Assembly (NCBI GenBank): GCA_903863885.1
Contig: CAIPEB010000608.1
Coordinates: 1-64,000 of the forward strand
DNA: 64,000 bases
Reading direction: 5' to 3'
Origin: an uncultured Planctomycetaceae bacterium
GTDB taxonomy: Bacteria > Planctomycetota > Planctomycetia > Pirellulales > Pirellulaceae
Under the pieces are notes generated by a model. The model was not told the DNA's origin. It made no database searches and was given only the letters and a program-made list of their open reading frames with translations. Position numbers and translations under genes: made by a program. Of this stretch, positions 4,601 to 48,534 are shown one piece after another (position 1 is the stretch's first letter; every line of letters starts with the position of its first letter).

Positions 4601-7600
4601 GGATCGCCCGTGACCCGGACGACGCTCAAGGGAGCAAGATCCGAGTCGGCTAGGTCGACGTCGCTTCCAAAAGCGACCTCGGAGGCTTCGGTGACAACCA
4701 GACGGCCCAGCGCGACCGACGATCCAATGTCCGCATTGAAGTTCACTGTGCCGCCAGTCCCGGCTGACAGGGTCAAGTAATTGGTCTCGCCGGACTGGCT
4801 ATCGACCGGTGCATTCTGCGTGAATCGAATTCCCGCTCCGGTACTTCCGTTATCGCTGGTGCGGATCCGGACGCTGCTTTGAAGTTCGACCGGACCGTTC
4901 AAGCGGACAGGACCGCCGGTCGTATTCAGGGCCAGCAGACCGCCGGCACCGCCGTTCAATTGAATCCCCTGGGCAATCGTCGAATCCCGTCCGAGGTCGA
5001 CCTCGCTCAGGACGTTGATTGCGTGCACTGGCGAAAAGTCGCGGCCAAACACCACGCTGTCGGCGCTGTTGACGACAAGTTGGTTCAAGGCCCATTGCGA
5101 GCCGATATCGGCCCGAAACTCGACTGCGCCGGCCTCGGCGGTCAATTCCAGATCGTTGAACTCCTCGGCCTCACTGTCGACGAAACCCCGGAACAGCACC
5201 GTGCCTCCCGCCGTGCGAACGTGCGAGTTGGCGATCACACGGACGTTCCGCATTTCAATGTTGAGGTCGAGCGTCTCGACGGTTCCGCCAATTGAAGTGT
5301 CGCTGGCCACCGAGATCAGACCGTTGCCGAATGTGGTCGTGTCGCCGGCCTCATCCCCGAGCACGACGCCTCCCGTGTTGAGGAACTCGACCGCGTCTTG
5401 AATCATCCCGCCGTCGCGAAATTCGACTGCGTAGGTCCGGCCGAATGTGACCAGAGATGTCGCGTACACTGATTTCCGAAATACAGCCGGGCCGGTGGAT
5501 TCAAGGTGATTGTCCTGGAGCGACAACGCGCCCAACGGCACGAGACCACCGACAACTCCGGTGACAGTGATTGCTCCGGAGTGGGATACCAGCGACAGGT
5601 TTGCAGTCGGTCCATCGGCGGCGCCGTCGATGGAACCGTCCACCAGGATGTCTGCCCCAAGCGGCGCAGCGTTACCAAACGTCGTATCGACAATCGCATC
5701 GCTGCGCATCGTCACTGCCCCGTTGAGCCGGACTCGGTCCGCAGCGGTGTTGATCGCAAGCGTGTTTCCTTCGCCCGCATCCAGGACAATCCCCCCGTCG
5801 CCGATGTTGGAAGAACGGCCGAGATCGACGCCGTATGTCGGCAATTCCGACGGTGCCGCGCCATCGTCCACATTGATGGAGGAAATGTGGGCGAAATCAG
5901 GTTCTGTCGGCGCGTTGCCCAGCGTCACGCCGTAGGCATCGGTTACGACGAAATGTCCCAGAACATGGCTCGCACCGATGTCGGCATTGAAACTCGCCGT
6001 GCCTTCTGCGCCCGCCGACAATGTCAGGCCGTTGTTTTCGCCTCCTTGGCTGTCGACGGGGGCGTTGAGTGTAAAGCGAATCTCAGCACCTGCCGCAAGT
6101 CCGCCGTCCGTGGTGTCGATCGACGCGTCACTCCACAATTGGGTCTCGCCGTTGAATCGGACACGGTCCGCGGTGGTCGTGAAGGCGATTGTCCTTCCGT
6201 CGCCGCCGTTCAGAATGATACCCGCGTCGCCGATTGGCGAGGCGCTGCCGATGTCGATATCGAAGGCGTCCGGATTGGAGGGGTCGAGGTCCCCGCCCAA
6301 TCGCACGGCGCTCACGGGCGCAAAATCGGGATCTCCGATGCCCGCGTCGCCGCCAAAGACAACGCCCATCGCCTCGGTCACGATTAGTTGACCAAGCGGG
6401 TCGATTGCCCCTATGTCGGCGTTGAAATTCACGATGCCTGTGGCACCTGATGAAAGAACCAGATCGTTGTTTTCGGTGGACCGGCTGTCGATGGTTGCAT
6501 TCAGAGTGAAGCGGATTTCATCGCCTGCTTCCGCGCCGCCGTCGCTGGTATCCACCCGAGCGTCGCTCTCCAGCACTATCGCGCCGTTGAATCGGACGCG
6601 GTCCGCGGTGGTCGTGAAGACGATCGAACCGCCATCGCCGCCGTTCAGCGTGATCGTGCCTTCGCCGATGGGCGTGTTGCTGCCGATATCGATGTCAAAC
6701 GCATCTAAATTGGCCGGATCGGGGTCACCGTCGACTCGCACAGTGTCCACCGGCGCAAAGTCCGGATCACTTACGTCTTCGTTATTCCCAAACGCGACGC
6801 CGTATGCGCTCCGGATGATCAATTGACCGAGCGCTCGGTCCGCCCCGATGTTCGCGTTGAAGGTGACTGTCCCTTCGATCCCTGCATTCAGGATCAGGTC
6901 GTTGTCTTCTCCTGCCTCGCTGTTAATCGGGGCGTTTCGCGTGAAGCGAATTTCCGCACCGTTGGCGCTGCCGGCGTCGGTTGTGTCGAATTCCGCGTCG
7001 CTGTTCAGTTCAACGGGGCCGTTCATCCGCACGCGACCGCTCGTCGTGGAAAAAAGCAGCGATTTCCCATCGCCCGCATCAAGCGTAATACCGCCGGCAA
7101 TGGCGTCCGTATTGCCGATGTCGATCTCGCCCAGCGTCTGAACACTGGTTACCGGATTTCCGGGACCGCCGAAGCTCACTCCGCCGTCGGCTCGAGTTAC
7201 GACCAGTCTGCCGATCGGTTGCACGTCGCCGATATTGGCATGGAAGCTCACACTGCCTGAGTCGGCCGAAAGCGTCAAGCTACTGTTGGTGAGCGGTTCG
7301 CCATCGATCGTGGCCAGTCGCGTGAAGACGATATCTCCGCCGGCTGTTTCGATGATCGCCTCGGACGCCAGCGTTACCGGTCCGTTCAATCGGGCCAGTC
7401 CTCCATTCGTGCCGATAACGACCGGAACGTCCGGAGTGGAACTGTCCAGTGAGATATGCGTCGAAGTTATGTCCACGCCCTCGGGCGCAGTGGTGGTCAC
7501 GTTGCCGCGAAGCGTCGTCGTTCCGGATCCAGACAACTGCACCAGGCTGGCCGCAAAGACGCTGCTGTCGGCTGTCACATTCACTGCATTTACGATCGTA

Positions 7601-10600
7601 AGCGGGCCGATCGCATCCCCTGCATCGGATCCGACAGTGTTGCGAAACAGAATGTCGGCTTCGGAAGTCAGCGTCAGCGCTGCGTTCGCCGAAGAAGTCA
7701 GCACTTGTTCGAACGTGATCGTGCCGTCTGCGTTGACGCCCGCGTCGCCGGACAAATCCACTGCCGCATCGAACCGCACGATCCCCCCCCCGCCGGTCAG
7801 GATCTCGAGTCCATCGAGAACGACGTTGTCCGTCGTGATATCGAGTCCTTGCGGCGCGCTGGTTCGCAGGCCATCTCGGAACGTCGTTGTTCCCGTTCCG
7901 GTCTGTTGCACCACGCTGGCCGCATCAATGGTGAGCATCGCTTCGACGTTGACAGCGCTGGTGATTGTGACTGCGCCCAACGCGTCGCCGCTGACGTTGC
8001 CGACTGCCTCCTGGAACAGGATGTCTCCATCCGTGCCGAGCGTCAGGCCGAATGCGGAATTGTCCGGGGAAAGCAGGGTTCTGACGAATCGGATCCCGGC
8101 TTCGGCGTTGATTGCGACATCTCCCGTCAATTCGACCGGAGCGTCGAAAGACGCGCTGCCGCCGCCGACAGCGGTGATGGCAAGTCCGTCAAGAACAACC
8201 CGCGCCGCGGTCAGTTGCACTCCGTCCGGTCCGCTCGTGGTCACATCGTAACGGAGCGTTGTTGTGCCGTATCCGGCCAATTGAGTCAGGCTGGCTGCCT
8301 CGATCGTGCCGAACGAGTCCACGTTGACCGCACGTGCAATGGTGATGTCGCCCAGCGCAGCGTCATCCGGTCCGACCGAATCCTCGAATCGAACATCGGA
8401 ATCGGAAGCAAGCGTGAGAAACGCTCCGACGGAAGACGTTATGCTGTCCACGAAGGTTATCGGACCGCCCGCATCAATCGTGGTATTGACCACCAGTTCC
8501 ACCGGGGCGTTGAACCTCACAATCCCCCCGCCGGCGGCGACCAAACTGAGCAAGCCGTCTGAGTCGTCCAGTACGACCTGCATTGTCGATAGGTCGATGC
8601 CCTGGAGGTACGTCGTCACGTCGCTGTGCAGCGAGGTTGTGCCCGATCCGGTCAACTGCGTCAAACCGGCTGCCTCAATCGTGCCGAACACATCGACATT
8701 CGCGGCACGCGTAATTGTAATCGCGCCGAGTGCTCCGCCGCTGTGATTGCCGACGGCCTCCTGGAACGCAACATTCGCTTCGGTGCCGAGCGTCAGATTA
8801 GATGCCGCACTGATCGGCGAGACCACCGTCTGCAGAAAACGAATGTCGCTGCCCGCATTGATGACGACATCTCCGGTCAATTCGACGGGTGCGTCAAAGG
8901 TCACTGCGCCTTCCCAGTCCGCGGTCATCACCAGCCCGTCGAGCACAACGCGGGAGGTGGTCAGTGCAACTCCCTCGGCGCCGCTCGTGGTGACATCGTC
9001 ATGAAGCGTGGTGGTGCCGGAACCGGCCAGTTGCGTCAGGCTGCCTGCGTTGATTGTGCTGAACGCCTCAACATCAACAGCTTGCTCAATCGTGACTTGG
9101 CCCAGCGAGTCGCCGAACGCTGCACCCACGGGCCCTTCAAAGTAGATGTCTGCGCCGGAGTCGAGATGGAGGTCGCCGCCGCCGGGTGATAGGACGGTCT
9201 TGAGGAAGCGGATCGTGCCGCCCGCAACGATCGCCACACTTCCAACCAGTTCCACCGGCGCATCGAAACGCGCACCGCCGTCTCCGCCCGCATTGATCGT
9301 CAGACCATCGAGAACAACTCGTGCTGTGGCCAGATCCAAGCCTTCGGGAGCCGCAGTCGTAACATCTTCGTGCAGCGTGGTAACTCCGCTCCCTGCAGTC
9401 TGAACGATGCTGGCCGCGTCGATCGCGCCAAACGCCTCAACATCCACTGCCCTCGTGATGGTAAGAGCGCCGAAAGTGTTGCCGGGCCCGGACCATCCTG
9501 CATCCTGAAATCGAATGTTCTCGTCGGACGCCAGGGTGAGCGAGTTGCCGCTCGGAGCCGTCACTTCCTGCAGGAAACTGATCGTTCCTGCTGCATCGAC
9601 AAGAGTATCACCGGTCAGTTCGGTCACGGCGTTGAACCGTACGATGCCGTGCCCGCTGGTTGCAATCAACGTTCCATCCAGCACCACGCGGTCGGCAGTG
9701 AGGTCCAGGCCTGCGGAGGCAAACGTTGTCACGTTGTCGTGAATCGTCGTCATGCCGGTTCCCGCCTGCTGGATCAGATTGCCGGCGGTGAGCGGGGCCA
9801 GGAACTCGACGTCGGCGGCTGTGATGATCTCGAGGGTTCCGAGCGGAGTCGTGCCGCCGACAATATCGTGAAACGTGATGTTGCCCGACTGCGTCGAAAG
9901 GCTCAGGGATTCCCCGCCACCCGTCCAGGCATCAAGCAGTCCCTGAAAGACTATGTCGCCGGTTGTGCTGGTGATCGCTGCGTCGCCTGTCAGGGTGACG
10001 GCGGACATGTAGGTCACGCTGCCGCCATCGGTCGTCACGTCGGCGGCCGTCTCGACGATTCCGCTTCCGGACTGAAAGAAATCGCCCAGCAGTGTTACGT
10101 CCGCTGCGCTGGACATAGTCAGCAGGCCGGCATTGTGGATTGTGAGTCCAGCGAGCGGTTGAGAGCCGCCGACCGCATCGTCGAACTCGATCACCGCAGT
10201 CAAGTCGGTCGTCTCGACCGTCAGGTTCCAGGGTCCGTTTCCGTCGCCGTCAACAGTGCCGCGGAAAAAGACTCCGGCGAGCCCGTGGCTGGTCAGCGTC
10301 ACATCGGCCGTGAGTTCGATGGCATCGTTGAATTCCAGCGTTCCGCTCGCGGTGATGCCCGCGCCGATTCGAGTGACTCCGTCCGCGTCGGTGAATAGTC
10401 GTCCGATGGGATCACTGCCTCCAAGCGGGCCCAAGATATTCGTCGTGCCGCTCGTGTTCAGGGTAACTGCGGAAACGCCTTCGACCATGCTCTCGAGCCA
10501 TATGTCTCCGGAGCCGGCATTCACGTTGAGGGTATCTAATGTCGCTCCCTGCCCGATGGTCCCCGCGACGCGGATCGTGCCCGAATCGGATTGAAACGTG

Positions 10601-12132
10601 AGGTTTTCGCCGGGGCCGAATGCAGTGCCGAACACGCTGCCCTGGACGCTGATGTCCGATCCGCTCGAACTGGTTGAGAGCAGTACCGACGCGCCGTCCG
10701 CGAGCACGAGGTCGCCCTGGAAAAGCAGATTTCCCTCGTTGACGATGTCGGCTGCATCGCTGAAGGCAATTGTCGGTGCGACGAGCGTGAGTTGGTGACC
10801 CGGGGAGCCGATCGCATCGATCTCCGCGAGCACGTTGATCGAGGACGCCGCGATCAGCGTCACGTCGCTGGTGGTCAATTGCTGAACGATCGTTGCGGCC
10901 AAAAGTGCATCAATGTCAATCGTGTCGGGGTCCAGGACAAGCCGTCCGGCGATTCCGGATGTTCCCGTGAGGTCCGCCGAGCGAGCGAAGACGATCGACT
11001 CGCCGCCGGAAATCTCGGCGTAGCCCCCCTTCATTCCTCGCGCTGAGATCGCTCCGTGCGAGGCCGCTTCCTGGTCCGCCCACACGATCACCGATCCGCC
11101 GCCGGCATCGCCGTTTGCCTCAATGCGTGATCCGGCAAGCAACTCGACGCGTCCTCCCGTCAGCGACACTTCGCCGCCGATTTCGCCGGGTGAGGTGTCG
11201 GAAACATCGATGCGGCCGGAGAAAGACAGGATGCCGTCCCGGGCGGCGTTCAGCGTAACCTTGCCTCCCGCGACGGACAGCGACGCGTCGAATTGAATCG
11301 AGCCGCCTGAGACGGCGAGCGATTCGGCTGGATTGCTGAAAAGGAACTCGGTGGAAGCGAATACCCTGTCGCTGTTCAACAATCCGGCACGCAGGAGAGC
11401 ACCTGAGTTCGTCGTCGTATTGCTTGCAGTATCGCTGATCAACAGCGTCGCCGATGCATCGGCCGACCTCATAATCAGGTGATCAGCCGGCAGTTGACTG
11501 TGGACGCTTCCGACGTCGGTGTAGCGAATGCTCGCGGACGTTGCGTCGGCTGCGTAGGAGCCGAACATCAGCTGGAACGAACCGTCTCCGCCGCCGTTGA
11601 ACTGCTGGATCAGGGTATCGGCGTGCTGGCCGACGAGAATCAGCGAGTCTCCGACCGTCAGACCACCACCGTTTCCGAGGAATTCGATGCCGCCTGCCGG
11701 GCGCGGGTCTCCGCCGGAGAAATCGATGGTCAGAATATCGCGGTCGCCGGAGCCTTGAATTCGAATCGCCGACAAATCGGCGACGTTGCCGGCGAAAGCC
11801 TCCTGGCCGCTGACCGAGATCTGCAGTTGGTCGCCCTGGCGGGCCAGCGAAAACGAATCGGACTGGCCGTCGTCAGCCAGCGATCCGGCGTCTACGGTCA
11901 GTATGCCGGCCGCGTCGACCCACGCCGCAGGCGTTGCCGAGAGCACGCGTCGCCGCTCGAGTTCCCAGACTTCCAGGTTCGGGTAGAGCGCGCGGCCTGA
12001 CTCTCGGGCCCGCCTTTTGCGGCGGGTCCATCCCAGGACGCGTCGCAGAGTTCGTTTCCAGGCCGTGGAGCGAATCGGACCACACTCCTTTAAACGCACC
12101 CACCTCGCGGATGGCTGCGGACTGCGGGCCAC
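1606..12132 (-). CDS. Giant extracellular beta-repeat protein, 3508 aa
   Basis: The frame opens at GTG 12132; GTG 12099 is an alternative. The N-terminus is basic and carries LEVWELERRRVLSA at about residues 53-66, the planctomycete-type motif of extracellular giant proteins. Two families of tandem repeats follow. Block A has about seven units of roughly 100-130 aa, each with a TLHDDVTT-like and an ARVVLDGL-like segment. Block B has about ten units of roughly 130-150 aa, with NGPVEL, IRFTxNAPIDS, NFNADIGA and LVVTEAxGVxFG segments. The composition (Gly, Asp, Thr, Val; almost no Cys) suggests a beta-helix or beta-solenoid. A distinct C-terminal region of about 350 residues lacks the repeats and ends in a hydrophilic tail. 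I see no anchor motif. The gene lies 55 bp after a similar giant gene, probably in one operon. An adhesin, surface-layer or matrix role is inferred only from architecture. Confidence 0.9.
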   Translation of the reverse strand: MARSPQPSARWVRLKECGPIRSTAWKRTLRRVLGWTRRKRRARESGRALYPNLEVWELERRRVLSATPAAWVDAAGILTVDAGSLADDGQSDSFSLARQGDQLQISVSGQEAFAGNVADLSAIRIQGSGDRDILTIDFSGGDPRPAGGIEFLGNGGGLTVGDSLILVGQHADTLIQQFNGGGDGSFQLMFGSYAADATSASIRYTDVGSVHSQLPADHLIMRSADASATLLISDTASNTTTNSGALLRAGLLNSDRVFASTEFLFSNPAESLAVSGGSIQFDASLSVAGGKVTLNAARDGILSFSGRIDVSDTSPGEIGGEVSLTGGRVELLAGSRIEANGDAGGGSVIVWADQEAASHGAISARGMKGGYAEISGGESIVFARSADLTGTSGIAGRLVLDPDTIDIDALLAATIVQQLTTSDVTLIAASSINVLAEIDAIGSPGHQLTLVAPTIAFSDAADIVNEGNLLFQGDLVLADGASVLLSTSSSGSDISVQGSVFGTAFGPGENLTFQSDSGTIRVAGTIGQGATLDTLNVNAGSGDIWLESMVEGVSAVTLNTSGTTNILGPLGGSDPIGRLFTDADGVTRIGAGITASGTLEFNDAIELTADVTLTSHGLAGVFFRGTVDGDGNGPWNLTVETTDLTAVIEFDDAVGGSQPLAGLTIHNAGLLTMSSAADVTLLGDFFQSGSGIVETAADVTTDGGSVTYMSAVTLTGDAAITSTTGDIVFQGLLDAWTGGGESLSLSTQSGNITFHDIVGGTTPLGTLEIITAADVEFLAPLTAGNLIQQAGTGMTTIHDNVTTFASAGLDLTADRVVLDGTLIATSGHGIVRFNAVTELTGDTLVDAAGTISFLQEVTAPSGNSLTLASDENIRFQDAGWSGPGNTFGALTITRAVDVEAFGAIDAASIVQTAGSGVTTLHEDVTTAAPEGLDLATARVVLDGLTINAGGDGGARFDAPVELVGSVAIVAGGTIRFLKTVLSPGGGDLHLDSGADIYFEGPVGAAFGDSLGQVTIEQAVDVEAFSTINAGSLTQLAGSGTTTLHDDVTTSGAEGVALTTSRVVLDGLVMTADWEGAVTFDAPVELTGDVVINAGSDIRFLQTVVSPISAASNLTLGTEANVAFQEAVGNHSGGALGAITITRAANVDVFGTIEAAGLTQLTGSGTTSLHSDVTTYLQGIDLSTMQVVLDDSDGLLSLVAAGGGIVRFNAPVELVVNTTIDAGGPITFVDSITSSVGAFLTLASDSDVRFEDSVGPDDAALGDITIARAVNVDSFGTIEAASLTQLAGYGTTTLRYDVTTSGPDGVQLTAARVVLDGLAITAVGGGSASFDAPVELTGDVAINAEAGIRFVRTLLSPDNSAFGLTLGTDGDILFQEAVGNVSGDALGAVTITSAVNVEAMLTIDAASVVQQTGTGTTTFRDGLRTSAPQGLDITTDNVVLDGLEILTGGGGIVRFDAAVDLSGDAGVNADGTITFEQVLTSSANAALTLTSEADILFRNTVGSDAGDAIGPLTIVNAVNVTADSSVFAASLVQLSGSGTTTLRGNVTTTAPEGVDITSTHISLDSSTPDVPVVIGTNGGLARLNGPVTLASEAIIETAGGDIVFTRLATIDGEPLTNSSLTLSADSGSVSFHANIGDVQPIGRLVVTRADGGVSFGGPGNPVTSVQTLGEIDIGNTDAIAGGITLDAGDGKSLLFSTTSGRVRMNGPVELNSDAEFDTTDAGSANGAEIRFTRNAPINSEAGEDNDLILNAGIEGTVTFNANIGADRALGQLIIRSAYGVAFGNNEDVSDPDFAPVDTVRVDGDPDPANLDAFDIDIGSNTPIGEGTITLNGGDGGSIVFTTTADRVRFNGAIVLESDARVDTSDGGAEAGDEIRFTLNATIDSRSTENNDLVLSSGATGIVNFNADIGAIDPLGQLIVTEAMGVVFGGDAGIGDPDFAPVSAVRLGGDLDPSNPDAFDIDIGSASPIGDAGIILNGGDGRTIAFTTTADRVRFNGETQLWSDASIDTTDGGLAAGAEIRFTLNAPVDSQGGENNGLTLSAGAEGTASFNADIGASHVLGHFVVTDAYGVTLGNAPTEPDFAHISSINVDDGAAPSELPTYGVDLGRSSNIGDGGIVLDAGEGNTLAINTAADRVRLNGAVTMRSDAIVDTTFGNAAPLGADILVDGSIDGAADGPTANLSLVSHSGAITVTGVVGGLVPLGALSLQDNHLESTGPAVFRKSVYATSLVTFGRTYAVEFRDGGMIQDAVEFLNTGGVVLGDEAGDTTTFGNGLISVASDTSIGGTVETLDLNIEMRNVRVIANSHVRTAGGTVLFRGFVDSEAEEFNDLELTAEAGAVEFRADIGSQWALNQLVVNSADSVVFGRDFSPVHAINVLSEVDLGRDSTIAQGIQLNGGAGGLLALNTTGGPVRLNGPVELQSSVRIRTSDNGSTGAGIRFTQNAPVDSQSGETNYLTLSAGTGGTVNFNADIGSSVALGRLVVTEASEVAFGSDVDLADSDLAPLSVVRVTGDPANPGAWGIDLGSVESIGPGGIKLNAGDGSTISIVTTADKIRFNGAVELQSNVLLDTTDGNAFAGAETRFTIHAPIDSQPGEHNNLTLTAGTAGIVNFNGDIGAVSAPGRLVVTDARGVMFGNDSFDPQLDLGPISFVRLDGDPIDPSAWALDVGSVSPIGDLGIWFDAGHTPSSQPLTLHLTTTGDAVRLNGAVQLRSDVAMDTSDSDPSAGAQILFTNNAPIDSRAGQSNDLTLTAGTGGVEFNTSIGSQVALDRLEVTRADNGVIFGGADDPGGGTGDQGPVPIVNAIGGINIGSISVITGGIVLNAGADQRMEVGSDGTDIRFNGFVTLASHVAISTGDSTVGDIVFTDESTIDSDSGERNELVLTAGLGRVAFNADLGTREALSLLEITQADGGVVFGEGDTPDGDMGDLGPVGFVYVTAYIDVGSLAPIAGGIVLNAGQGVEMVVQASEGFARWNGPIELRSPAFIDTSAASGDITFTDETTIDSVTDEYNSLRLNSAGGGIFFNANVGTGELGDQTIGNLTVEMAGTIVTAASRIWTSGDIDFFAAPSDFYAGDILISEVAPGLSEIVGRQVTMLAGGLITIENGASVAAFSNGGWVTDPIGRVSNIPPLLRIVPPDPNRGLNLTDRVQVITGTFGGEEEKGDNLELGSNFTLVVVWDDGITNTITNLHAGDHVVLHVSESGEGEPVITHVSDTGPIHYVLSHEYTIAHLLTVTEYAYATINIFDDSAIYFQDVRPFDLNEVGDYTRVRVAREQLLYAELPKEFVPPAPLRPVDTGVALFEATQISVEGSRRLEDLAAIAQTNVANVRLIYIVRVSAGGAESDPYLLPDDALNNLTALFEKFKTEGLPDGRYRIYLKEVGFPPRKVVEFYKSGDTFGDPIREPGRGSNPLPKEEAEAGLPRSSGARSMEQPHHRGDGNGGASSPASALFTPRQTPDRLVQPAVAELAASLEAVRQSLSPDSWAQRIDDALQQSSSDIMSRGARLRRQLQDP

Positions 12133-12187
12133 TGGTTCCCCGCGGTCCGCAGTTCGTCAGTCGATTCGCGGTTGCTGTAATCGCGGG

Positions 12188-15100
12188 TCAGGGTCCAGGG
12201 TGGAAAACCACGACCGGGGCATCTAGCACCAGCATACCCGCGGTTTCCGCTGCGTCATATTGCATTCCGTCAAACGTCGAACCTGCCCAGAATAGATCAA
12301 TTTTTTCGGTAGCAGAGAGCGTCGTCTTGTCCGAAACCGTCAGGACATTGGCGTCAATGCCGTCGGAGCTGTTTACCAGATCCCCGGTAGCATCCACGGT
12401 CAAGTAACCCTTGGCCGTTGTTTCGCCCAGCACGGTGTCGTGCGCGTGTATCAACGTGATGTTCTTGCCGGTCAGCGACACTTCCCCAGTGTACTGCGAT
12501 GTCGCATAGACAAGGGCTATATCGTAGTAAACATCGACTCCCGCCGCCTTGGCGATGAACGTCGCTGTTCCGCCAACCACTACTCCGCCACCGTCGTTGA
12601 TCGTGCCGGCCGCCTCAACGGACAGGTTGCCGTCGATGCTCGAATCGCCGAGCACAATGCTCTGGCCGTTTACCAAGAGCACATCGTCACCCGTGGCCGT
12701 GACCTTGACAATATGGAAGGTATTGGACGAATTATCTAGCGTGACGTTGCCGGCCACGTCGAGTGTAGTGGTCCCGACAACTGCGATGACGCCGATCTGA
12801 TCGAGATCGCCGCTGGTCGTGACTGTCAGTGTATTGGCACTGACGGGGCCAAGACGCAGTTCTGACGAGTCAACCAGCGTGACCGCATTTGCGGCCGTCA
12901 CTGTCACTTCGTTGAAGTCGTTGCCAACGCTGTTCAGGGTGATGTCGTTCGAGGCACCCGCATCGAGCGTAGCCTTGCCGGTAACCGAGAGGGTTCCGGT
13001 GTTGGTGATGTCACCGTCTGCTTCGACGCTCAGGTTGCCCGCAATCGTCGAATCGCCGAAATCCACATTCGTGGAGTTTACGATCGATACGTTGACGGCC
13101 GAAACCGTCATCGTGACGTTCATCCAGTTGGCCGGGTTGGTCAGAGTAATGTCGTCGGCAACAAGCAGTTCCACACCGTTCGCAGTTGATACCGCGCCGG
13201 TCTGGACCAGTGCGCCGCCCGCAGTCAGGATCAGCGAGTCGGCGTTGACCCCGGCCAGACTCAAGTCGTCGCTGTCAGTCAGAGTAACGGCGCCGCCGGA
13301 CGTTATTGCTACTTCGCTGAAGTTGTTCCCGGCATCATCCAGCGTGATGTCGTCAGTGCCGGCATCGAACGTGGCCTTCAGCTTGATTGAAAGCGCGCCG
13401 CTGTCGGTGATCGCTCCGCCCGCCGTGACGGAAAGAGCGCCGCCGACTGACGAGGCGGCCAGTTCAACGCCATCGGCTTCCCGGAGGGCGACGCTGCCGC
13501 CGGCGGTGAACCCGACCGACGACAAACTGTTGTCAAAACTGTTGAGGGCGATGCTATCCACGGTGCCCGCGGCCAGTGTTGCCACGCCGGTGACATCCAG
13601 GATGCCGCTCTGAGTGATGCCTTTGCCCGCCGTCACGGCCAGCGTGCCGCCAATAGTCGACGCTCCCAACGTCAGAGCATCCACATCAGTGATGGAGACG
13701 TTTCCGGCAGCCGGGAAGGCAATTGTCCGGAAGTTGTTGCTGGCATGTTGCAGCGTGACATCGGCAACTCCCGCATCGAAACTGGCCAGTTTGGCGACAG
13801 TCAACGGGCCGGATTGAGTGATGGCACCGCCTGCAACGACCGTCAGATTTCCCTTCAGGTTCATGGCCGCCAGGACGATTCCGCCTGTGTTCGTGAGCAG
13901 GACATTACCGCCGGCGACGACGGATACCGCGCCGGTCAGGTCATTTCCCGCGTTGTCCAGCGTAATGCTGTTCGTCGAACTGCTGGTCAACGTGGTCGTC
14001 CCGTCCACCAGAATTGCAGCGGTCTGCGTCAACGCACCTTTTGCATTGACGATCAGATTGCCGACGATATCAATCGCCCCCAACACCAGGGCGTTGGTGT
14101 CAGTCAGTGATGCGTTGCGCCCCGAAACGATCGACACACTGGAGAAATTGTTGGTGGCGGTCGTCAGCGTAATATCACTGGTGGTCGGTACGGTCAACGT
14201 CGTGGCCCCAGTAACGACCAATGCGCCGATCTGAGTGATCGACCCGTCGGTGGTTTCCAGGCCAAGAGTTCCCGAGATTTTCGACGCAGCCAGAGTCAGA
14301 TCGCCGTCCGTATCCTTGAGTGACACGTTCGCGCCGGACGTGATGGCCACTTGCCCCAAGGAGTTGTCATGCGTCGAAAGATTAATGTCGTTTGCGGATC
14401 CGGCGGCCAGTGTCAGTTTGCCGGTGACGTCAATGCCGCTGGTCTCAGTGATGGCGCCGTTGGAGGTTACTCCGAGCGTACCCGTGACCGTGCACGCTCC
14501 CAGGACGATCGCGCCGGAATTGCGGAGCGTTACGGCGCGGCCGTAAATGGCCACGGCCCCGCCGAAGTTATTGTCGGTCCGGCTGAGCGTAATGTTGTTG
14601 GCCGCTCCGGCGTTCAATGTCGTGGTGCCGGGCACAACCAATCCGCCGGTTTGGGTAATGGCTCCAACGGTTGTGATTTCCAGGCTGGATGCGTCGGCCG
14701 GAGGACCTGCAACATCATTCAGCACGATCGCGCCGAGCACTAAAGCGTTTGAATCTCTCACCCAAACGTCATTTGCGGCCGCGACAGTCAGCGTGCCGAA
14801 ATTGTTCGCGGCGTTATTCAGCGTAATGTCCGCCGTGCCCGTATTGAAACTCGCAATCTTCGTCGCTACCACGGCCTCGGACTGAGTAATGTTGTCGTTG
14901 GTCGTGGTGACCGTCAAATTCCCCGCGATTTTCGACGCACCGAAGTTCGTCGCAACCGTGTTCTTGAGAAGCGTGTTTCCGCCGGTGACGTAAATCGTTC
15001 CGTCCAAGACGTTGTCCGACCCCAGCGTAATGGTGCTCGCAGCACCGACCGCCAAGATCGTATTGCCCGTCACATCCAAGACGCCGGACTGAGTGATCGA

Positions 15101-15850
15101 TCCTCGGCTGCTGGAACTCAAACTGGCTTGAACGCTCAGGCTTCCAGCGACGGTGCTCGCTCCCAGAATCAGCGAATTGACGTCCTTTAGCGACACATCA
15201 TCCGCGGCAGTAACTGCGACGGACAAGAAGTTGTTGGCAGGATTCGACAGCAGGATATCTGAGGTGCCTGCATTGAGAGTCGCAGCGCCGCCCACAACCA
15301 TCGCGCCTGTCTGAGTCAATCCTCCGCCTGCACCGACGCTCAGTGTGCCCGTAATGCTCGTCGTTCCAAAGATGAGCGCAGCATCTCGGGTTACCGCGAC
15401 GTTCTTGCTCTTGGTGACCGCGAGGCTTTCGACGCTCTTCAAGTCGATCGCAACGCTGGCATTAGGTTGAATGTTCTGGACTGCCAGCGAATCGGTGCCA
15501 CCTTTTGCATCGAAGCTGATCGTGTTGACATTGTTCGAATTGGGGCCCGTCATCCTTGCCTGGAATTTGCCGGCATAATAGATGTCAACGTAACTCGTCT
15601 GACCGATCAGGGACACAGCGTCATTGCTAGCGTCACCCGTAAGTGAGAGAGTGCCGGTTCCTGCATCCCATGCAGCCGTAACGGCCAGCATTCGCCGGTC
15701 TTCGCATCCCTCAAATGCCAGCAGCCTGGCACGTCGGCCGGCATTCCGCCGCTTGCGGAAGTTCGTTCGGCTGCGATTGCCGCGCGACAAAATGCCCCTC
15801 AGAAGTCGGGAAAGGAAACCGCCGCGATTGTGACCGTACGAGTTACCCAT
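12188..15850 (-). CDS. Large extracellular beta-repeat protein, about 1220 aa
   Basis: The frame extends to ATG 15874, but ATG 15850 has a purine-rich GAGGGG a few bases upstream and is preferred. A basic N-terminus rich in Arg carries FEGCEDRRMLAVT, the same kind of motif as in the neighbouring giant protein. The rest is about 15 tandem units of roughly 70 aa. Each unit reads approximately as an ITQSGxLxVTGxATL strand, an ITLxxAxNNF segment and an xALxLGAS turn, like a beta-helix of the filamentous-haemagglutinin type. I see no catalytic motif, transmembrane helix or sorting signal at the C-terminus. It is the first gene of a probable operon with the 3508-aa protein and is divergent from the gene at 16146. 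A surface or secreted structural role is inferred; export by the HlyD/TolC locus nearby is only a hypothesis. Confidence 0.88.
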   Translation of the reverse strand: MGNSYGHNRGGFLSRLLRGILSRGNRSRTNFRKRRNAGRRARLLAFEGCEDRRMLAVTAAWDAGTGTLSLTGDASNDAVSLIGQTSYVDIYYAGKFQARMTGPNSNNVNTISFDAKGGTDSLAVQNIQPNASVAIDLKSVESLAVTKSKNVAVTRDAALIFGTTSITGTLSVGAGGGLTQTGAMVVGGAATLNAGTSDILLSNPANNFLSVAVTAADDVSLKDVNSLILGASTVAGSLSVQASLSSSSRGSITQSGVLDVTGNTILAVGAASTITLGSDNVLDGTIYVTGGNTLLKNTVATNFGASKIAGNLTVTTTNDNITQSEAVVATKIASFNTGTADITLNNAANNFGTLTVAAANDVWVRDSNALVLGAIVLNDVAGPPADASSLEITTVGAITQTGGLVVPGTTTLNAGAANNITLSRTDNNFGGAVAIYGRAVTLRNSGAIVLGACTVTGTLGVTSNGAITETSGIDVTGKLTLAAGSANDINLSTHDNSLGQVAITSGANVSLKDTDGDLTLAASKISGTLGLETTDGSITQIGALVVTGATTLTVPTTSDITLTTATNNFSSVSIVSGRNASLTDTNALVLGAIDIVGNLIVNAKGALTQTAAILVDGTTTLTSSSTNSITLDNAGNDLTGAVSVVAGGNVLLTNTGGIVLAAMNLKGNLTVVAGGAITQSGPLTVAKLASFDAGVADVTLQHASNNFRTIAFPAAGNVSITDVDALTLGASTIGGTLAVTAGKGITQSGILDVTGVATLAAGTVDSIALNSFDNSLSSVGFTAGGSVALREADGVELAASSVGGALSVTAGGAITDSGALSIKLKATFDAGTDDITLDDAGNNFSEVAITSGGAVTLTDSDDLSLAGVNADSLILTAGGALVQTGAVSTANGVELLVADDITLTNPANWMNVTMTVSAVNVSIVNSTNVDFGDSTIAGNLSVEADGDITNTGTLSVTGKATLDAGASNDITLNSVGNDFNEVTVTAANAVTLVDSSELRLGPVSANTLTVTTSGDLDQIGVIAVVGTTTLDVAGNVTLDNSSNTFHIVKVTATGDDVLLVNGQSIVLGDSSIDGNLSVEAAGTINDGGGVVVGGTATFIAKAAGVDVYYDIALVYATSQYTGEVSLTGKNITLIHAHDTVLGETTAKGYLTVDATGDLVNSSDGIDANVLTVSDKTTLSATEKIDLFWAGSTFDGMQYDAAETAGMLVLDAPVVVFHPGP

Positions 15851-15874
15851 ATTGCCCCCCTCATGATAGAGCAT

Positions 15875-16145
15875 ACCATCTAGCTTAACAGATGCGGAAA
15901 ATCTCCCTAGAAATGGGTATGCCTACGAACGAGTTCATGGTAACTCCCCCCAACTGTGCAAGCAAGAGAAAAGCCATGGACATGCCGCCAAATCGCGATG
16001 TCAGATTTGGGCGGATGGCTAGGAAGAGTAGTGTGTGCGGTTGCGGTAAATGTGACTGATTGCGCATGCGGACAGCCGACGAAGATAAGCCCAGTGAGCA
16101 TAACCGGCAGCGTCTACCGCTACCCCCGCACCTCGGATACGCGGC
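15875..16145. promoter_or_regulatory. Divergent intergenic region between repeat-protein operon and DUF gene
   Basis: These 271 bp separate two divergently oriented genes and must contain both promoters. No conserved operator, riboswitch or convincing -35/-10 pair could be identified by eye. Several short frames are open here on both strands, but none has a plausible start signal. Confidence 0.4.
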
Positions 16146-43460: not shown

Positions 43461-46400
43461 TCATTTCCGCAATTGTTCGATAGCTTCGGCGACTCGTTCG
43501 CGAGCTGCGAATACGCGATCCGGGTCGGGCAGGATGCGCGTCGAGTAACGTCCGCCGGCGTTGGGAATCGTCACGAGTTCCTGTGCGAAATCCATGGCCT
43601 TCTGCGCGGACGTGGTGTCTTTGCCGGCTGCCCGGGCCTTGTCGATCAGGTGGCGGAGCAGATAGAGGTATTCATAATCCTCGCATCCCTCGCGAGCCTG
43701 TTCGAGGCGAATGGATGTAACCGGGCCGTCGTGGCCGATCGTCGCACCGGGATATGCGAGGAAACCGTCGCCGTTGGGGTAACGCACGTAGTATGAATTT
43801 TCGGGCGTGTCGCTCTGGAAAATGTAACTGTGCCAGCCCCATTTGTAAGGATCATAGGTCAGCCAGTTGATCCCCCAGAACTCATATGCCTCGGCACCGT
43901 ACTTGAAACAGTACGCCGGCAGCAGACGCTCGACGGCGCAATACGGCGTGTCGGTGCACATCTGGCCATCGGTGGTCCACCGGACACGGTCCCCGGCCGC
44001 TTTGCGTTTCGCGATCAATTCCGGTGCAACAATGCCGTAATGTCCGATCCCCCAGCAGTTGAGGTACCCGTCCCATTCCGGCACGTGGGCCCACGTGCTG
44101 CAGTAGATGAATATCGCGGGGTCCACCTCGTGGATCATCTCGCACAGGGCCTTCATCTGGGTGATGATTTCTTTCTCGCGATAGAACGGCTCGTCGGAGA
44201 TATACAGCACGCACTTCTTGTCCCAGCCCCGTGACTTCAGGTGGTCCCAGTAGGTTTTGAGAACCGCCTGATAAGCCCGCTTGAATTCCGGGCGGAGTTT
44301 GCCGCGATCCGCGCCAGGGTACGGGTACTTGCCCTCATAAGGCTTTTCGCCGAACTTCTCCGACGGCGGAAATCCCCAGCCGAACAGGTAGAAGTCCCCC
44401 GGCGTGTAGAACTGAGGCAGGCCGAGTTCGTCGAGTGCATATTCGGCTGCCTTGTCGAAAGCCGTGAAATCGGCGACGACCTTTCCGTTCTCGTATCGCA
44501 ATTGAGGCGTCGGGTGTACCGTATCGGGGCAGACGCGGCGGTCCGCCATGAACTTGAGAAAGTCCCGCTGCGCCTGCTCCGGCGACTTGCCGGGGATGTT
44601 CCATCGGCCATCCATGCGGAGGTCGTAGACCGCTCCGACATGATTTTCACGAGGCAGCTCGAAATCCCAGACATGGACGGTGAAGGGAACACGGCCGATC
44701 TCGGTGCCGGACGCAACGAATCTCGCAACGCCCCGGTAATCGCCGGGGGCCGTATCCGCCGCGGTCTTTATCGTGATCCACACAGGCTGGGTTATGCCCG
44801 CTCGTAATTCGAATCGGTCGCGGGGCAACAGCGGATCGGGCCAGTAACCGGCCCAGCCGTCGCATGCCGGCGGCGACGTCGGGTACTTGCGGACCCAGGC
44901 CGCCGTCTTTGTGCTGTAGTAATTGGTCGGATAATCGACAGGCACATAACCGACGGCTCCTATCTCGAATTTGTTCAGCATCTTGCCTGCCCCGTTGCGC
45001 GGAGCGTCCACTTCGACCCGCACTTCGGGGAAAGCCCGATCCGATCGGACTGCAAGCTGCAGCGGTTCAAATTCTCCGCGAGCCATGCGGATGCTGGTCT
45101 TTGCCGCGGTCTGCGCCGGAACGTCGTCCTGAAATACCTTGACGATCGAGTTGACCTGCCAGACCTGGAAACCGCGGTTGGCCGTTGTGTCGCGGGTCTC
45201 CATGCGGCCGATCTGCGCAGAACACACTTCGACGAGCAATGCTCCGTCATGCCATGCCGTGCCCGTGGAATTCATCGTCAGGTGAAGCTGGAAATTCGCA
45301 ATGTCGCGCGGCATCGTGAAGAGTCCGGAGATCAGCGTCCAATCCGTCGTGCCGTCGATTGCAGGGCCCGCGCCGGTCATTCCGGCGCTTTCACACAACC
45401 CGCCTGCCGCGTTGCGAAAGTGTGCGTGCAGTTGCAGGCCGCCCTTGAGCTGTTCGCACTTGACCCACGCGGCAAAGAGATACGACCTGTCGGGTTCGAC
45501 CCGCACGTCCTGCCGCCAACCGAACCACGACGACTGTGCGTCCTGCGGGATACTGATGCGTGCACTGCGGCGGCCAAACAACCCGGGCTCAACCAGGTCC
45601 ATGCGACTGTTCGCCGGACGCTCGCCCGCCGCGCCGCCCGACCAGCCTTCGGGCAACGAGTCGCCGGATTCGAAGCTTGGGTTGCGCACGAGGTTGATCG
45701 GACTGGCAAGCAGGCTTTCGTAGCCGGGGCCGCCCGCCATCTTCTGTCTTGCAGTCGAATCGCCCGGCAGTGCCGGGTTCAATGCGTTGGTGGTAAACGC
45801 GTCGCCGGTCGATGTTGGGACCGGAGAACTCGTTTCAGCGAGATACAGATAATACACATTGACTGTATGCGGCGGTATCGACGCGCCTTCGATGAGAAGC
45901 AGGTCGCCAAGCTGATAGGATTTCACGGCGCGTCCGTCGAGCACCGCGACGAGTCGATCGCGATCAGCTCTGCCGCGCAACCGCGCGAGTACTCCGGCGA
46001 GGTCAACCGATATCAGTCCAGTGGCAGCCTGGGCGTCGCCGTAGTTGGCGACACGAACAGGAACGCGATAGTTCCAGGCCTTGCCGCTGCCCGTCTTATC
46101 GCCATACCAAGCGGTATCTGCTCCGAACTGTGCAAGGGTCAGTTTTTCGCGTTGCCCGGCGGTTGCTGTCAGTCGGGCCGGGTCCTGACATTCGAGCGAT
46201 ACGTCGTCAAACCAGGCGCTGCCGGTCCCGTGCAGAACGGTGCCGAGATCGGCCCGGTCGGCCTCGGCCGGCGCGGTGAATTCGGCAACAACTTCCTTCC
46301 ACCCGTAGGTGCCCTCGCCGCCGGAAAGCATGGGCGACGCGAGCATGAAGTTCTTTTCGTTGCCGACATGGATGTACCAGCCCGCCATGCCCGTTACGTC

Positions 46401-47075
46401 CTGTGCCTTGACCCATGCCCGCATCACGTAGCGCGAACCGCCCGTGATCCGCAGACTTCCCTGCCGCGTGGCAACCCACGAAGACGGTGCACCCGAGTCC
46501 ACCGTCGTCTTCATGCTGCGATTGCCCGACCGCTTCTCGTCACTGACCCAGGCAATGCGATGCTGAGCGTCCGTCGTATCGCTTCGCCAGGATGTTGGAT
46601 CCGCACCGTCACCATGTTCAAAGCCGCCGTTGCGTACTCCAACGTCTGCTTCCAGCCAATCCGGAACGCCCCACGCCGAAGGATTGTCGAAATAGGCCCA
46701 ATAACGGACGTTCGCGCCGGCAGCACATTCGACGGGCAGCACCAGATGACTGCCTTCCGGGATTGGTCCGGCATGTACCTCATCGCCCTCGGGGCCGATG
46801 ATGTTGTAGAGCACTTCGACTCCGACATCGTTGCAGACGCGCAGCGACTCGACCGGCACACCCGCGAGATCCGCGTTCTGCGATTCTCGCCGGATCAGCA
46901 ATTTCACAGGCTCGCCCTTGGCGTCTTTGCCGGTCTGGTTGCTGACGTTGATGGGCAAGCGACTCTGCCAGATGTCTCCATTACCCATGCAAAGCCCTGG
47001 GTGCCATGGAGCAGCTTGCGCCAAAGCGGCTACGGATGCCGCGAGGGTGGCCAACAGCATGATGATGCGCGTCAT
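43461..47075 (-). CDS. Secreted DUF4091/GH123-like protein
   Basis: The frame extends to ATG 47096. ATG 47075 is preferred: AGG lies five bases upstream and the signal peptide (MTRIIMLLATLAASVAALAQA) begins there. The product is 1204 aa. The N-terminal two thirds hold beta-sandwich, carbohydrate-binding-like segments, including two similar ones near residues 140-295 and 465-620 (each with an RSxRxxxxSGAPSSW- or SARISIPQDAQSSW-like strand). The C-terminal third is a TIM-barrel like DUF4091/GH123, with YISDEPFY (D961-E962) matching the acidic pair of GH123 N-acetylgalactosaminidases. The substrate may be an amino sugar; this is inferred. Confidence 0.83.
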   Translation of the reverse strand: MTRIIMLLATLAASVAALAQAAPWHPGLCMGNGDIWQSRLPINVSNQTGKDAKGEPVKLLIRRESQNADLAGVPVESLRVCNDVGVEVLYNIIGPEGDEVHAGPIPEGSHLVLPVECAAGANVRYWAYFDNPSAWGVPDWLEADVGVRNGGFEHGDGADPTSWRSDTTDAQHRIAWVSDEKRSGNRSMKTTVDSGAPSSWVATRQGSLRITGGSRYVMRAWVKAQDVTGMAGWYIHVGNEKNFMLASPMLSGGEGTYGWKEVVAEFTAPAEADRADLGTVLHGTGSAWFDDVSLECQDPARLTATAGQREKLTLAQFGADTAWYGDKTGSGKAWNYRVPVRVANYGDAQAATGLISVDLAGVLARLRGRADRDRLVAVLDGRAVKSYQLGDLLLIEGASIPPHTVNVYYLYLAETSSPVPTSTGDAFTTNALNPALPGDSTARQKMAGGPGYESLLASPINLVRNPSFESGDSLPEGWSGGAAGERPANSRMDLVEPGLFGRRSARISIPQDAQSSWFGWRQDVRVEPDRSYLFAAWVKCEQLKGGLQLHAHFRNAAGGLCESAGMTGAGPAIDGTTDWTLISGLFTMPRDIANFQLHLTMNSTGTAWHDGALLVEVCSAQIGRMETRDTTANRGFQVWQVNSIVKVFQDDVPAQTAAKTSIRMARGEFEPLQLAVRSDRAFPEVRVEVDAPRNGAGKMLNKFEIGAVGYVPVDYPTNYYSTKTAAWVRKYPTSPPACDGWAGYWPDPLLPRDRFELRAGITQPVWITIKTAADTAPGDYRGVARFVASGTEIGRVPFTVHVWDFELPRENHVGAVYDLRMDGRWNIPGKSPEQAQRDFLKFMADRRVCPDTVHPTPQLRYENGKVVADFTAFDKAAEYALDELGLPQFYTPGDFYLFGWGFPPSEKFGEKPYEGKYPYPGADRGKLRPEFKRAYQAVLKTYWDHLKSRGWDKKCVLYISDEPFYREKEIITQMKALCEMIHEVDPAIFIYCSTWAHVPEWDGYLNCWGIGHYGIVAPELIAKRKAAGDRVRWTTDGQMCTDTPYCAVERLLPAYCFKYGAEAYEFWGINWLTYDPYKWGWHSYIFQSDTPENSYYVRYPNGDGFLAYPGATIGHDGPVTSIRLEQAREGCEDYEYLYLLRHLIDKARAAGKDTTSAQKAMDFAQELVTIPNAGGRYSTRILPDPDRVFAARERVAEAIEQLRK

Positions 47076-47119
47076 CGCGACCTTATCCTTGTGCACTTGG
47101 AGTTTCGGGAAGCGGTGCC

Positions 47120-48343
47120 CTATTTCGGAGCAACAGCACCGCTTTCGGCGGAGGTATTACCGCCCTGCGAGGCCTCCACGATCAAAGCGTCGATCCATTT
47201 GTCGAGTTGTTCGTCACCGGGCGAACCCAGTGACTTGTGGCGAATCACTCCCTTGGCGTCGAGTATGTAGAGTGTCGGCCACCCTCGCACATTCCAGGTT
47301 GTCGAGATCTCTCCCGAAGTGCTTCCCCCGTTCCACCAGCTCGGCCACGTGATCTGTTCTTCCTGGATGACTTTCTTCAGTGCTTCGCGATCCCGATCAC
47401 TGTTGATTCCCAGCAACGCAAACGGCTTGTCGGCCAGACGCTTCACGAGCGACCGCTCGTGCGGGTACATGCCCCGGCAAGGGCCTCACCAGTTGCCCCA
47501 GAAATCGAGCATCACCACCTTTCCGCGAAAGTCCGACAGGCGGAGCTTCTTGCCCTCGATGTCCTCGCCATCGATTTCCGGCGCCGCGCATCCGACCGAG
47601 AGATGCTGGATCTCGAACAGTTCCCGCTCAGCGGCCTGTCCCAGCGTCTTGTTGCCGAACTTCAGTTCGCCGTAGGTCTGCACCACGCGCCCCAACAGCG
47701 TTTCAATCTCGGTGGCCAACTGTTTCGGATCCCGCGAGACGAGCCGATCCGACGCTTCTTTGCCACGAATCTCCGCGTAGCGGGCTGCAAGCTCCGGGCG
47801 GTTCTTCAGTTGTTCGAGCAATTGCCCCTGTTGCTTCAGGAATTGCGCCAACGCATAACACGCCGGTCCCTGCACGGAGCGATGTGGATTTGTTTCCAGC
47901 GCTTTGCGCAGGAAAGCTTCGGCTTGCGGGCTGTCGCTGTAGACCAGCGCAGTGCAGACGTTGCCGAGTTTGTCGCTGGCGATGTATTTCTCGGACAGCT
48001 TGCCGAGCGCCTTGTCCGGCAATTCCCCCGAACGCACGTTCGAGACGACCCATAAGAGTGAATCCGCAGCGGCTCCTTCGTCGGTCGTCGTATCGGCGAA
48101 CTCAAGCAATCGCTTTCCCGTGGATTCGGGACTGGGCCTTTCATTGACGGCCTTGCTGCGTTCCTCGTCCGTCTTGGCCTCCGAGTACTTCTTGAAGAAC
48201 TCCTGCTGGCCCTTCGAATACTCCGCGAGTATTCCCGCGAGCTGCTCGGATGCCGATGGCGGCTTATCCGGCTTCGCCTCTTCGCCCCGCAATTGTCCCG
48301 CTGAAATCAGCAGGGTCGCGAGGCCAACAAGAATGCGAGTCAT
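47120..48343 (-). CDS. TlpA-like thioredoxin, probable selenoprotein (W-U-G-P-C) with in-frame UGA
   Basis: ATG 48343 follows a strong AGGAGG and starts a signal peptide (MTRILVGLATLLISAG). The frame runs to 47120 with a single TGA at 47486-47488, codon 286; read through, the product is 407 aa. Residues about 20-240 are helical. Residues about 245-400 are a TlpA/redoxin domain: RLSDFRGKVVMLDFWGNW, then U286-G-P-C289, then RGMYPHERSLV and the cis-proline RGWPT. The TGA sits exactly where homologues have the attacking Cys, and both flanks stay in frame and conserved. Sec readthrough is therefore more likely than decay. A hairpin with a GGUC loop lies 25-42 nt downstream. A TGC-to-TGA mutation or sequencing error is the alternative. 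No selA/selB/selC is in the window. A standard caller would split it into 47486-48379 and 47120-47470. Confidence 0.85.
47444..47461 (-). promoter_or_regulatory. SECIS-like hairpin downstream of the UGA codon
   Basis: On the coding strand CACGAGC-GGTC-GCTCGTG forms a perfect 7-bp stem with a GGUC tetraloop. The stem starts 25 nt and the loop 32 nt after the UGA. Bacterial SECIS elements have an apical loop 16-37 nt after the UGA with G in its first positions, and E. coli fdhF also has GGUC at its tip. The bulged U of the fdhF stem is absent here. It encodes conserved residues H-E-R-S-L-V, so protein constraint could contribute to the palindrome. Confidence 0.55.
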
Positions 48344-48534
48344 CAGCGAACCTCCTTTGGAAATAGGAATCGAACACAACTCACAACAGTTTTCGGTTGC
48401 TCGATCGTGGGTGGCACGGGCAGCGTGCTCTCAGGTTTCACCTCGTCGCTGTTCAGGTTTGCCGTTCCGGGCGTCAAGGGTGGCTGGTCCACCCGCAAGG
48501 TTGAACATCACCGGTGCCCGCAATGTCCGCGTTT

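Follow-up and report, generated by a model that had tools for sequence, protein, structure and literature searches.

The window, by which we mean the whole 64,000-nucleotide stretch of DNA analysed, carries on its minus strand a frame of 407 codons that runs from an ATG at 48343 to a TAG ending at 47120 and whose sole interruption is a TGA at codon 286 (47488 to 47486). The first-pass annotation had described a single break falling on the first residue of a thioredoxin motif, here W-U-G-P-C, and the translation bears this out, together with the flanks it had quoted (DFWGNW, RGMYPHERSLV and RGWPT), all of which lie in the minus-strand frame. Its placement of the frame at 47120-48343 was right; the strand was left unsaid, and the forward-strand translation of this interval contains several stops. 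The active-site context reads ...VVMLDFWGNW-U-GPCRGMYPHERSLV... in the minus-strand translation, and AAAGGAGG lies ahead of the start ATG. The features of the locus are as follows.

47123-48343, minus strand: coding sequence of the predicted selenoprotein, 407 residues, TlpA/ResA-like (translation, Pfam, ATG with AAAGGAGG upstream)
47120-47122, minus strand: TAG stop codon of the selenoprotein gene
48351-48358, minus strand: Shine-Dalgarno-like AAAGGAGG, read from the sequence
47486-47488, minus strand: in-frame UGA at codon 286, predicted to encode selenocysteine (Sec) and opening the W-U-G-P-C active site
47477-47479, minus strand: codon of Cys289, the second active-site residue
47444-47461, minus strand: putative SECIS hairpin CACGAGC-GGUC-GCUCGUG, 24 nt past the UGA
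47451-47454, minus strand: GGUC loop of this hairpin, 31 nt past the UGA
47162-47596, minus strand: thioredoxin-fold (ResA/TlpA-like) domain, residues 250-394 (Pfam, AlphaFold2 model, structure matches)
47603-48253, minus strand: N-terminal all-helical domain, residues 31-247 (AlphaFold2 model)

Also on the minus strand of the window are an open frame of 3516 residues (1606-12156), for which Pfam gave nothing at E<=0.001, and one of 1244 residues (12188-15922), which contains 15 stretches of DUF5649 repeat.

With U read as C, the Pfam model AhpC-TSA (PF00578) matched residues 250-369 at 68.2 bits (cut-off 26), and the Thioredoxin_8, Redoxin and Thioredoxin models also scored above their cut-offs; in the N-terminal domain, TPR_19 and HEAT_2 appeared only below theirs. 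The AlphaFold2 model (18 sequences in the alignment; mean pLDDT 90.1, pTM 0.82) is all helix over residues 31-247, with the thioredoxin fold occupying about 250-394; pLDDT falls below 50 at both ends of the chain (1-19 and 396-407). Foldseek confirmed the thioredoxin fold, aligning ResA chains at TM scores (target) of 0.85-0.92, and the nearest PDB structures, by sequence as well as by fold, are of the ResA type. The earlier label of "TlpA-like" is therefore sound at the level of the fold. Scores against the NCBIfam models for ResA, TlpA and DsbE were 76.6, 51.4 and 46.2 bits, all under the curated cut-offs of 170, 230 and 123, and the model of the WAxxUGC selenoprotein (NF041054) gave 37.6 bits where 300 are required, the window motif being UGPC and not UGC. 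The combination by which Prx-like thiol:disulfide oxidoreductases are recognised, PF00578 with UxxC or UxxU, is found in the window protein (UGPC). A hydrophobic N-terminus, judged by eye, suggests that the protein is exported.

The helical domain is complete ahead of the UGA, and Sec insertion, as a rule, has to compete with termination. One can thus picture the UGA as a regulated switch, in which low selenium would bring translation to a stop at codon 286 and release a truncated helical protein with a meaning of its own, and Sec insertion would give the redox form. The thioredoxin half is, however, strongly conserved, from which it follows that the full-length product matters, and we consider such a switch unlikely.

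The first-pass annotation had proposed that homologues be aligned at residue 286 and that decay of their downstream halves would count against a selenoprotein. A search with the protein (P0001) against 98 related genomes, its own included, gave matches in 53 at E<=1e-20. Of the first 30 loci, 19 had TGA and 11 had Cys at codon 286, and 18 further regions (15 listed with TGA for which there was no locus yet, plus three others) yielded 14 TGA, three Cys and one Tyr. The pooled set of 136 loci (L023-L070, L220-L307), deduplicated by sequence to 139 contexts, was selected on protein matches and on the stops within them, without regard to the hairpin, and is weighted to TGA. These contexts have TGA at codon 286 in 121 cases, Cys in 17, Tyr in one, and TAA or TAG in none; since mainly TGA matches were fetched, the ratio of TGA to Cys cannot be taken for a frequency in the population. 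In the aligned region of the 121 TGA contexts, other stops occur only at 289 (a second TGA, in eight) and at 390-396 (gene ends), and the frames of these relatives are intact past codon 286 save for a frameshift after residue 305 that splits one copy (L064). Because TGA recurs at this codon and is never replaced by TAA or TAG, it cannot be put down to a sequencing error or to a nonsense mutation confined to one genome.

Several family members deserve separate mention. The one copy with Tyr at 286 (L067, G027:C1) has a TGA at 333, in a genome with neither selA above cut-off nor a listed tRNA-Sec; it is probably a plain pseudogene and serves as an apt negative control. The window's own genome encodes a Cys paralogue with a W-C-G-I-C motif and without the hairpin (L070, G000:C229). 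As many as five UGA copies were found per genome examined, and adjacent UGA copies on one strand (L056, L058, L161 and L173) suggest tandem duplication. In a quick tree of 138 thioredoxin domains (L064 was dropped as too short), computed without codons 286 and 289 and the hairpin region, we counted at least 9 Sec/Cys changes, against a shuffled mean of about 16, the tree being unrooted and most of its forks unresolved.

Exactly 24 nt past the TGA begins a hairpin that was absent from the first-pass annotation. The bSECIS criteria set out in the relevant part of PMC13188914 are an upper stem of 4-16 bp, an apical loop of 3-9 nt, a G in the first two loop positions, a distance of 16-37 nt from UGA to loop and a minimum free energy of at most -7.5 kcal/mol. 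The window hairpin has a stem of 7 bp, a 4-nt loop that reads GGUC (as it does in 111 of the 121 UGA copies), a UGA-loop distance of 31 nt and an energy of -10.5 kcal/mol for its 18 nt (z=-3.97); the stability of an 87-nt fold around it is not unusual (z=-1.13). An additional hairpin between the UGA and the SECIS, seen by eye, was dropped, as its register shifts between sequences.

Across the 121 UGA copies, CACGAGCGGTCGCTCGT is present at 24 nt past the TGA without mismatch in 100, with one mismatch in seven, with two in four and with three to eight in the remaining ten. Of these copies, 111 retain all six inner pairs together with the GGUC loop, and we call them canonical; none of the 18 non-UGA homologues does so. 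Overall, 698 of 726 paired cells can pair, a number that drops to 350 at most if the two strands are put out of register by 1-3 nt; the outermost pair is not conserved (83/121). Unconstrained folding of 60-nt segments predicted the full hairpin in 26 of 34 UGA contexts.

Within the canonical copies, Cys occupies position 289 in 103 of 111. The eight of the 121 UGA copies with a second TGA there (U-L-T-U in seven and U-L-S-U in one; L032, L041, L042, L064, L232, L239, L269 and L281) have two UGAs three codons apart, at 286 and 289, with one hairpin. The seven UxxU copies in the tree share one branch (SH-aLRT 99), and public genomes add the motifs UPTU and ULGU.

The hairpin is also coding sequence, spelling H-E-R-S-L at codons 295-299. 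Synonymous entropy in the 111 canonical copies is 0.18, 0.13, 0, 0 and 0.13 bits at these five codons, against 1.87 bits at the neighbouring Pro294, 1.38 at Val300 and 0.9-2.5 at most others; the lowest values outside the hairpin, Trp and Met aside, are those of Cys289 (0.28), Tyr293 (0.39) and Phe281 (0.69). The same five codons vary in the 18 non-UGA homologues. Only two of the 12 possible synonymous single changes in the HERSL codons preserve both pairs and loop (C27U and C39U), and these are the only residue-neutral changes seen in the canonical copies, each occurring alone in two of them (L030 and L267; L034 and L292, respectively). Wherever an inner pair has changed in these copies, pairing has been kept: by the compensatory changes G30A and C37U, which turn Leu299 into Phe (L293 and L298, in what may be one event or two), by C27U and G40A, which turn Val300 into Met (L263), by A29G as a G-U pair, with Glu becoming Gly (L239), and by A26G as a G-U pair, along with a further change at position 25 (L269). 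Position 25 alone is altered in L254 and L305. Judged from this pattern of substitution, which shows it as far as a comparison of sequences can, the hairpin is selected at the level of RNA pairing.

An opposite view would be that the protein needs P-H-E-R-S-L-V after its active site, so that the hairpin is fixed through the residues and RNA pairing is incidental. The stretch does come right after the active-site helix, and in 14 Cys homologues H295 is retained in five, E296 in seven and R297 in nine; conservation of H-E-R-S-L could thus serve the protein in part. Against a purely protein-level cause, the choice of codons is near-invariant beyond what the protein needs, only 8 of the 864 possible spellings of HERSL preserving pairs and loop; residues 299 and 300 do change where both strands change and pairing stays; and Ser298 is found in one of the 18 non-UGA homologues (L068, as TCC and out of register) and in none of the ten divergent UGA copies. 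We hold this explanation to be very improbable.

On balance we lean towards a different reading, in which a single SECIS sequence has stayed near-fixed while, in Planctomycetota and Verrucomicrobiota, the rest of the protein has drifted to roughly 30-65% identity, the RNA dictating residues near the active site. The hairpin would be near-fixed because RNA pairing, the identity of the loop and the H-E-R-S-L codons hold one another in place; Ser298 would be the foremost dictated residue, and most substitutions that pass would be wobbles or compensatory pairs by which a residue is altered.

The ten UGA copies without the canonical hairpin (L261, L278, L287, two in L289, L294, L297, L300, L303 and L304) read, for example, HEKALV in place of the HERSLV region. 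Seven of them (L278, L287, L294, L297, L300, L303 and L304) can form an alternative hairpin 7 nt further on, with at least 5 consecutive pairs and a 5-nt loop starting 38 nt past the UGA; its stems vary and still pair. The same structure is possible in 2 of the 111 canonical copies and in none of the 18 non-UGA homologues, and over the ten copies 42 of 50 paired cells can pair, against at most 30 when slid. No candidate hairpin was found in L261 or in either L289 copy. The alternative hairpin is possibly a shifted SECIS, which we treat only as a lead because it was found post hoc and because 38 nt is one beyond the published range of 16-37. The divergent ten and the Cys homologues together suggest that once the SECIS has shifted or Sec has been lost, codons and residues are freed together.

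The hairpin is also largely specific to this family. Its 16-mer core has 37 exact matches in the 98 genomes, against 4 for the reversed control, and none was seen in another selenoprotein family. Among the 30 match loci read, the only ones without the TGA-plus-24 arrangement are two unrelated loci (L071 and L075) and a decayed family fragment (L098); the 7 matches that gave no new locus fall inside P0001 matches already found. The decayed fragment (G043:C10:8990) retains the exact core and one TGA. We considered whether the hairpin might be the genome's general SECIS and rejected this idea: the sequence after the TGA of selD differs, and no other selenoprotein family was seen among the matches. 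A scan of public genomes (84,980 species) with the 44-base pattern TGA-N24-CAYGAGCGGTCGCTYGT returned at least 123 matches on at least 119 stretches. A P0001 homologue (blastp E<1e-5) is encoded by 122 of 123 among the matches listed, so that the pattern picks out the family; the sole exception among them (L116) is within chance expectation, which we put at about 2 by a rough estimate. Going by record title, the 119 stretches listed belong to Planctomycetota (92), Verrucomicrobiota (13), unassigned sources (8) and others (6), and the last six may be misnamed MAGs. The TGA-N24-hairpin pattern had no match in viral_contigs.

The machinery that the first-pass annotation had named for checking is present in full. 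The window's genome (11.0 Mb in 789 contigs, 96% complete) encodes selB (345.9 bits, cut-off 242.25) with selA directly after it on contig C11 (548.1 bits, cut-off 267.9), a tRNA-Sec on the same contig (69.9 bits, cut-off 47; tRNA-SeC(tca) by ARAGORN) and selD (352 bits, cut-off 125). The selD match, around 1531 of L020 (G000:C664), contains one in-frame TGA of its own, and SelD is therefore likely to be a selenoprotein itself; in the 33 nt past that TGA we found no stable fold that could serve as its SECIS (z=+1.05).

Copies with UGA also track the machinery between genomes. Among the 98 related genomes, all 19 with TGA at 286 have selA above cut-off and a tRNA-Sec of at least 66 bits, whereas selA is found in 40 of the other 79 (Fisher p=1.6e-5 for selA in 19/19 vs 40/79). 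In 392 genomes sampled from the phylum, 95 matched at E<=1e-30, 89 of them among the matches listed (to about E=2e-36). selA is above cut-off in 80 of the 85 genomes with listed TGA matches vs 157 of the 307 others (p=5e-15), codon 286 itself having been checked in fetched copies only. In three of the 89 listed genomes (G166, G376 and G463) the match contains no stop, and selA at E<=1e-85 is likewise absent; a fourth (G452), also without selA, has Cys at 286 and a TGA outside the aligned part. The five TGA-match genomes without selA above cut-off are G467, where selA is split across two contigs and tRNA-Sec scores 69.5 bits; G358, with a tRNA-Sec of 69.7 bits and no selA; G246, with no selA and tRNA matches no higher than 49.4 bits; and G268 and G306, 77% complete, with neither selA nor tRNA-Sec.

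Two further explanations can be set aside briefly. A pseudogene or sequencing error, in which a chance nonsense codon struck the first catalytic Cys and the downstream half is decaying, has a negligible probability: true remnants of the family do have in-frame stops (the TGA at 333 in L067, the fragment L098), but TGA at 286 recurs in the 121 contexts across many genera without a TAA or TAG, the frames beyond it are intact save L064, the UGA copies track selA and the SECIS is under pairing constraint. The chance that UGA is instead reassigned to a standard amino acid such as Trp, or generally suppressed, without any Sec, is just as negligible: beyond the open frame itself nothing speaks for it, many long ORFs of the window end in TGA, including the frame just downstream (43461-47156), relatives have Cys and not Trp at 286, and both the SECIS hairpin and a complete Sec machinery are present.

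The suggestion of a probable selenoprotein is thus strengthened by the machinery, by the recurrence of TGA in relatives and by a constrained SECIS hairpin, and the gene very probably encodes a true selenoprotein that falls in an already known, broad class, the TlpA/ResA-like proteins with a UxxC motif. We are close to certain, on genomic grounds, that it would act as an exported or periplasmic thiol-disulfide oxidoreductase whose attacking residue is Sec, inserted under the direction of the SECIS. SelB carrying Sec-tRNA(Sec) would bind the hairpin at 47444-47461, with its GGUC loop 31 nt past the UGA, and would deliver Sec at codon 286 in place of termination. The product would present a ResA/TlpA-type thioredoxin domain with W-U-G-P-C behind a helical N-terminal domain; Sec286 would attack a disulfide or another oxidised partner, and Cys289 would then resolve the selenenylsulfide.

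Standard annotation is expected to render such genes as two fragments or as pseudogenes, and a redox family may for this reason be largely hidden in planctomycetes and verrucomicrobia. Planctomycete selenoproteins and Sec genes as such are already known (PMC4807772). What is new lies in the near-invariant SECIS, the paralogues and the UxxU clade. Of interest, besides that SECIS, are the way in which RNA and protein constraints coincide and the clade itself, with its two UGAs three codons apart on one hairpin. Bacterial SECIS elements are described as plastic, many without mutual resemblance, in the relevant section of a review (PMC13188914), and a SECIS that hardly varies in a family spread over two phyla is at odds with that picture. 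Nature provides in this family a test case for the constraint that an RNA signal embedded in a gene places on the evolution of the encoded protein. Our literature search, made on listings of freely accessible journal articles, found no report of the family's fixed SECIS, and a term search within PMC12013277 gave nothing.

Selenoproteins of related kinds are known, namely the Prx-like thiol:disulfide oxidoreductases (PF00578, UxxC/UxxU) and the thiol-disulfide isomerase-like or Trx-like 1 proteins (cd02966, COG0526, UxxC), both of which appear in the portions of PMC13188914, PMC9312934 and PMC2398784 that concern them. The window family resembles these in its AhpC-TSA, Redoxin and Thioredoxin_8 matches and in having Sec first in UxxC, UxxU also occurring in related groups. 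As far as the table descriptions of those sources allow a comparison, it differs by its long helical N-terminus and its near-fixed SECIS at 24 nt; most of its members in this analysis come from Planctomycetota and Verrucomicrobiota, and a single genome often carries several paralogues. The ResA-like WAxxUGC selenoprotein of NF041054 is likewise TlpA/ResA-like and aligns at residues 252-338, but its motif is U-G-C where the window protein has U-G-P-C. With ResA, TlpA and CcmG (DsbE) the protein shares the thioredoxin fold and the position of the active site; unlike them, it has Sec in place of Cys and an additional N-terminal domain. The SECIS of E. coli fdhF has a GGUC loop about 18 nt past its UGA, and like it the window element is a stem-loop within the coding sequence, soon after the UGA, with a GGUC loop. 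The two differ in distance, the loop of the window element lying 31 nt past the UGA, and, in contrast to fdhF, the letters of the window SECIS are near-identical through most of its gene family.
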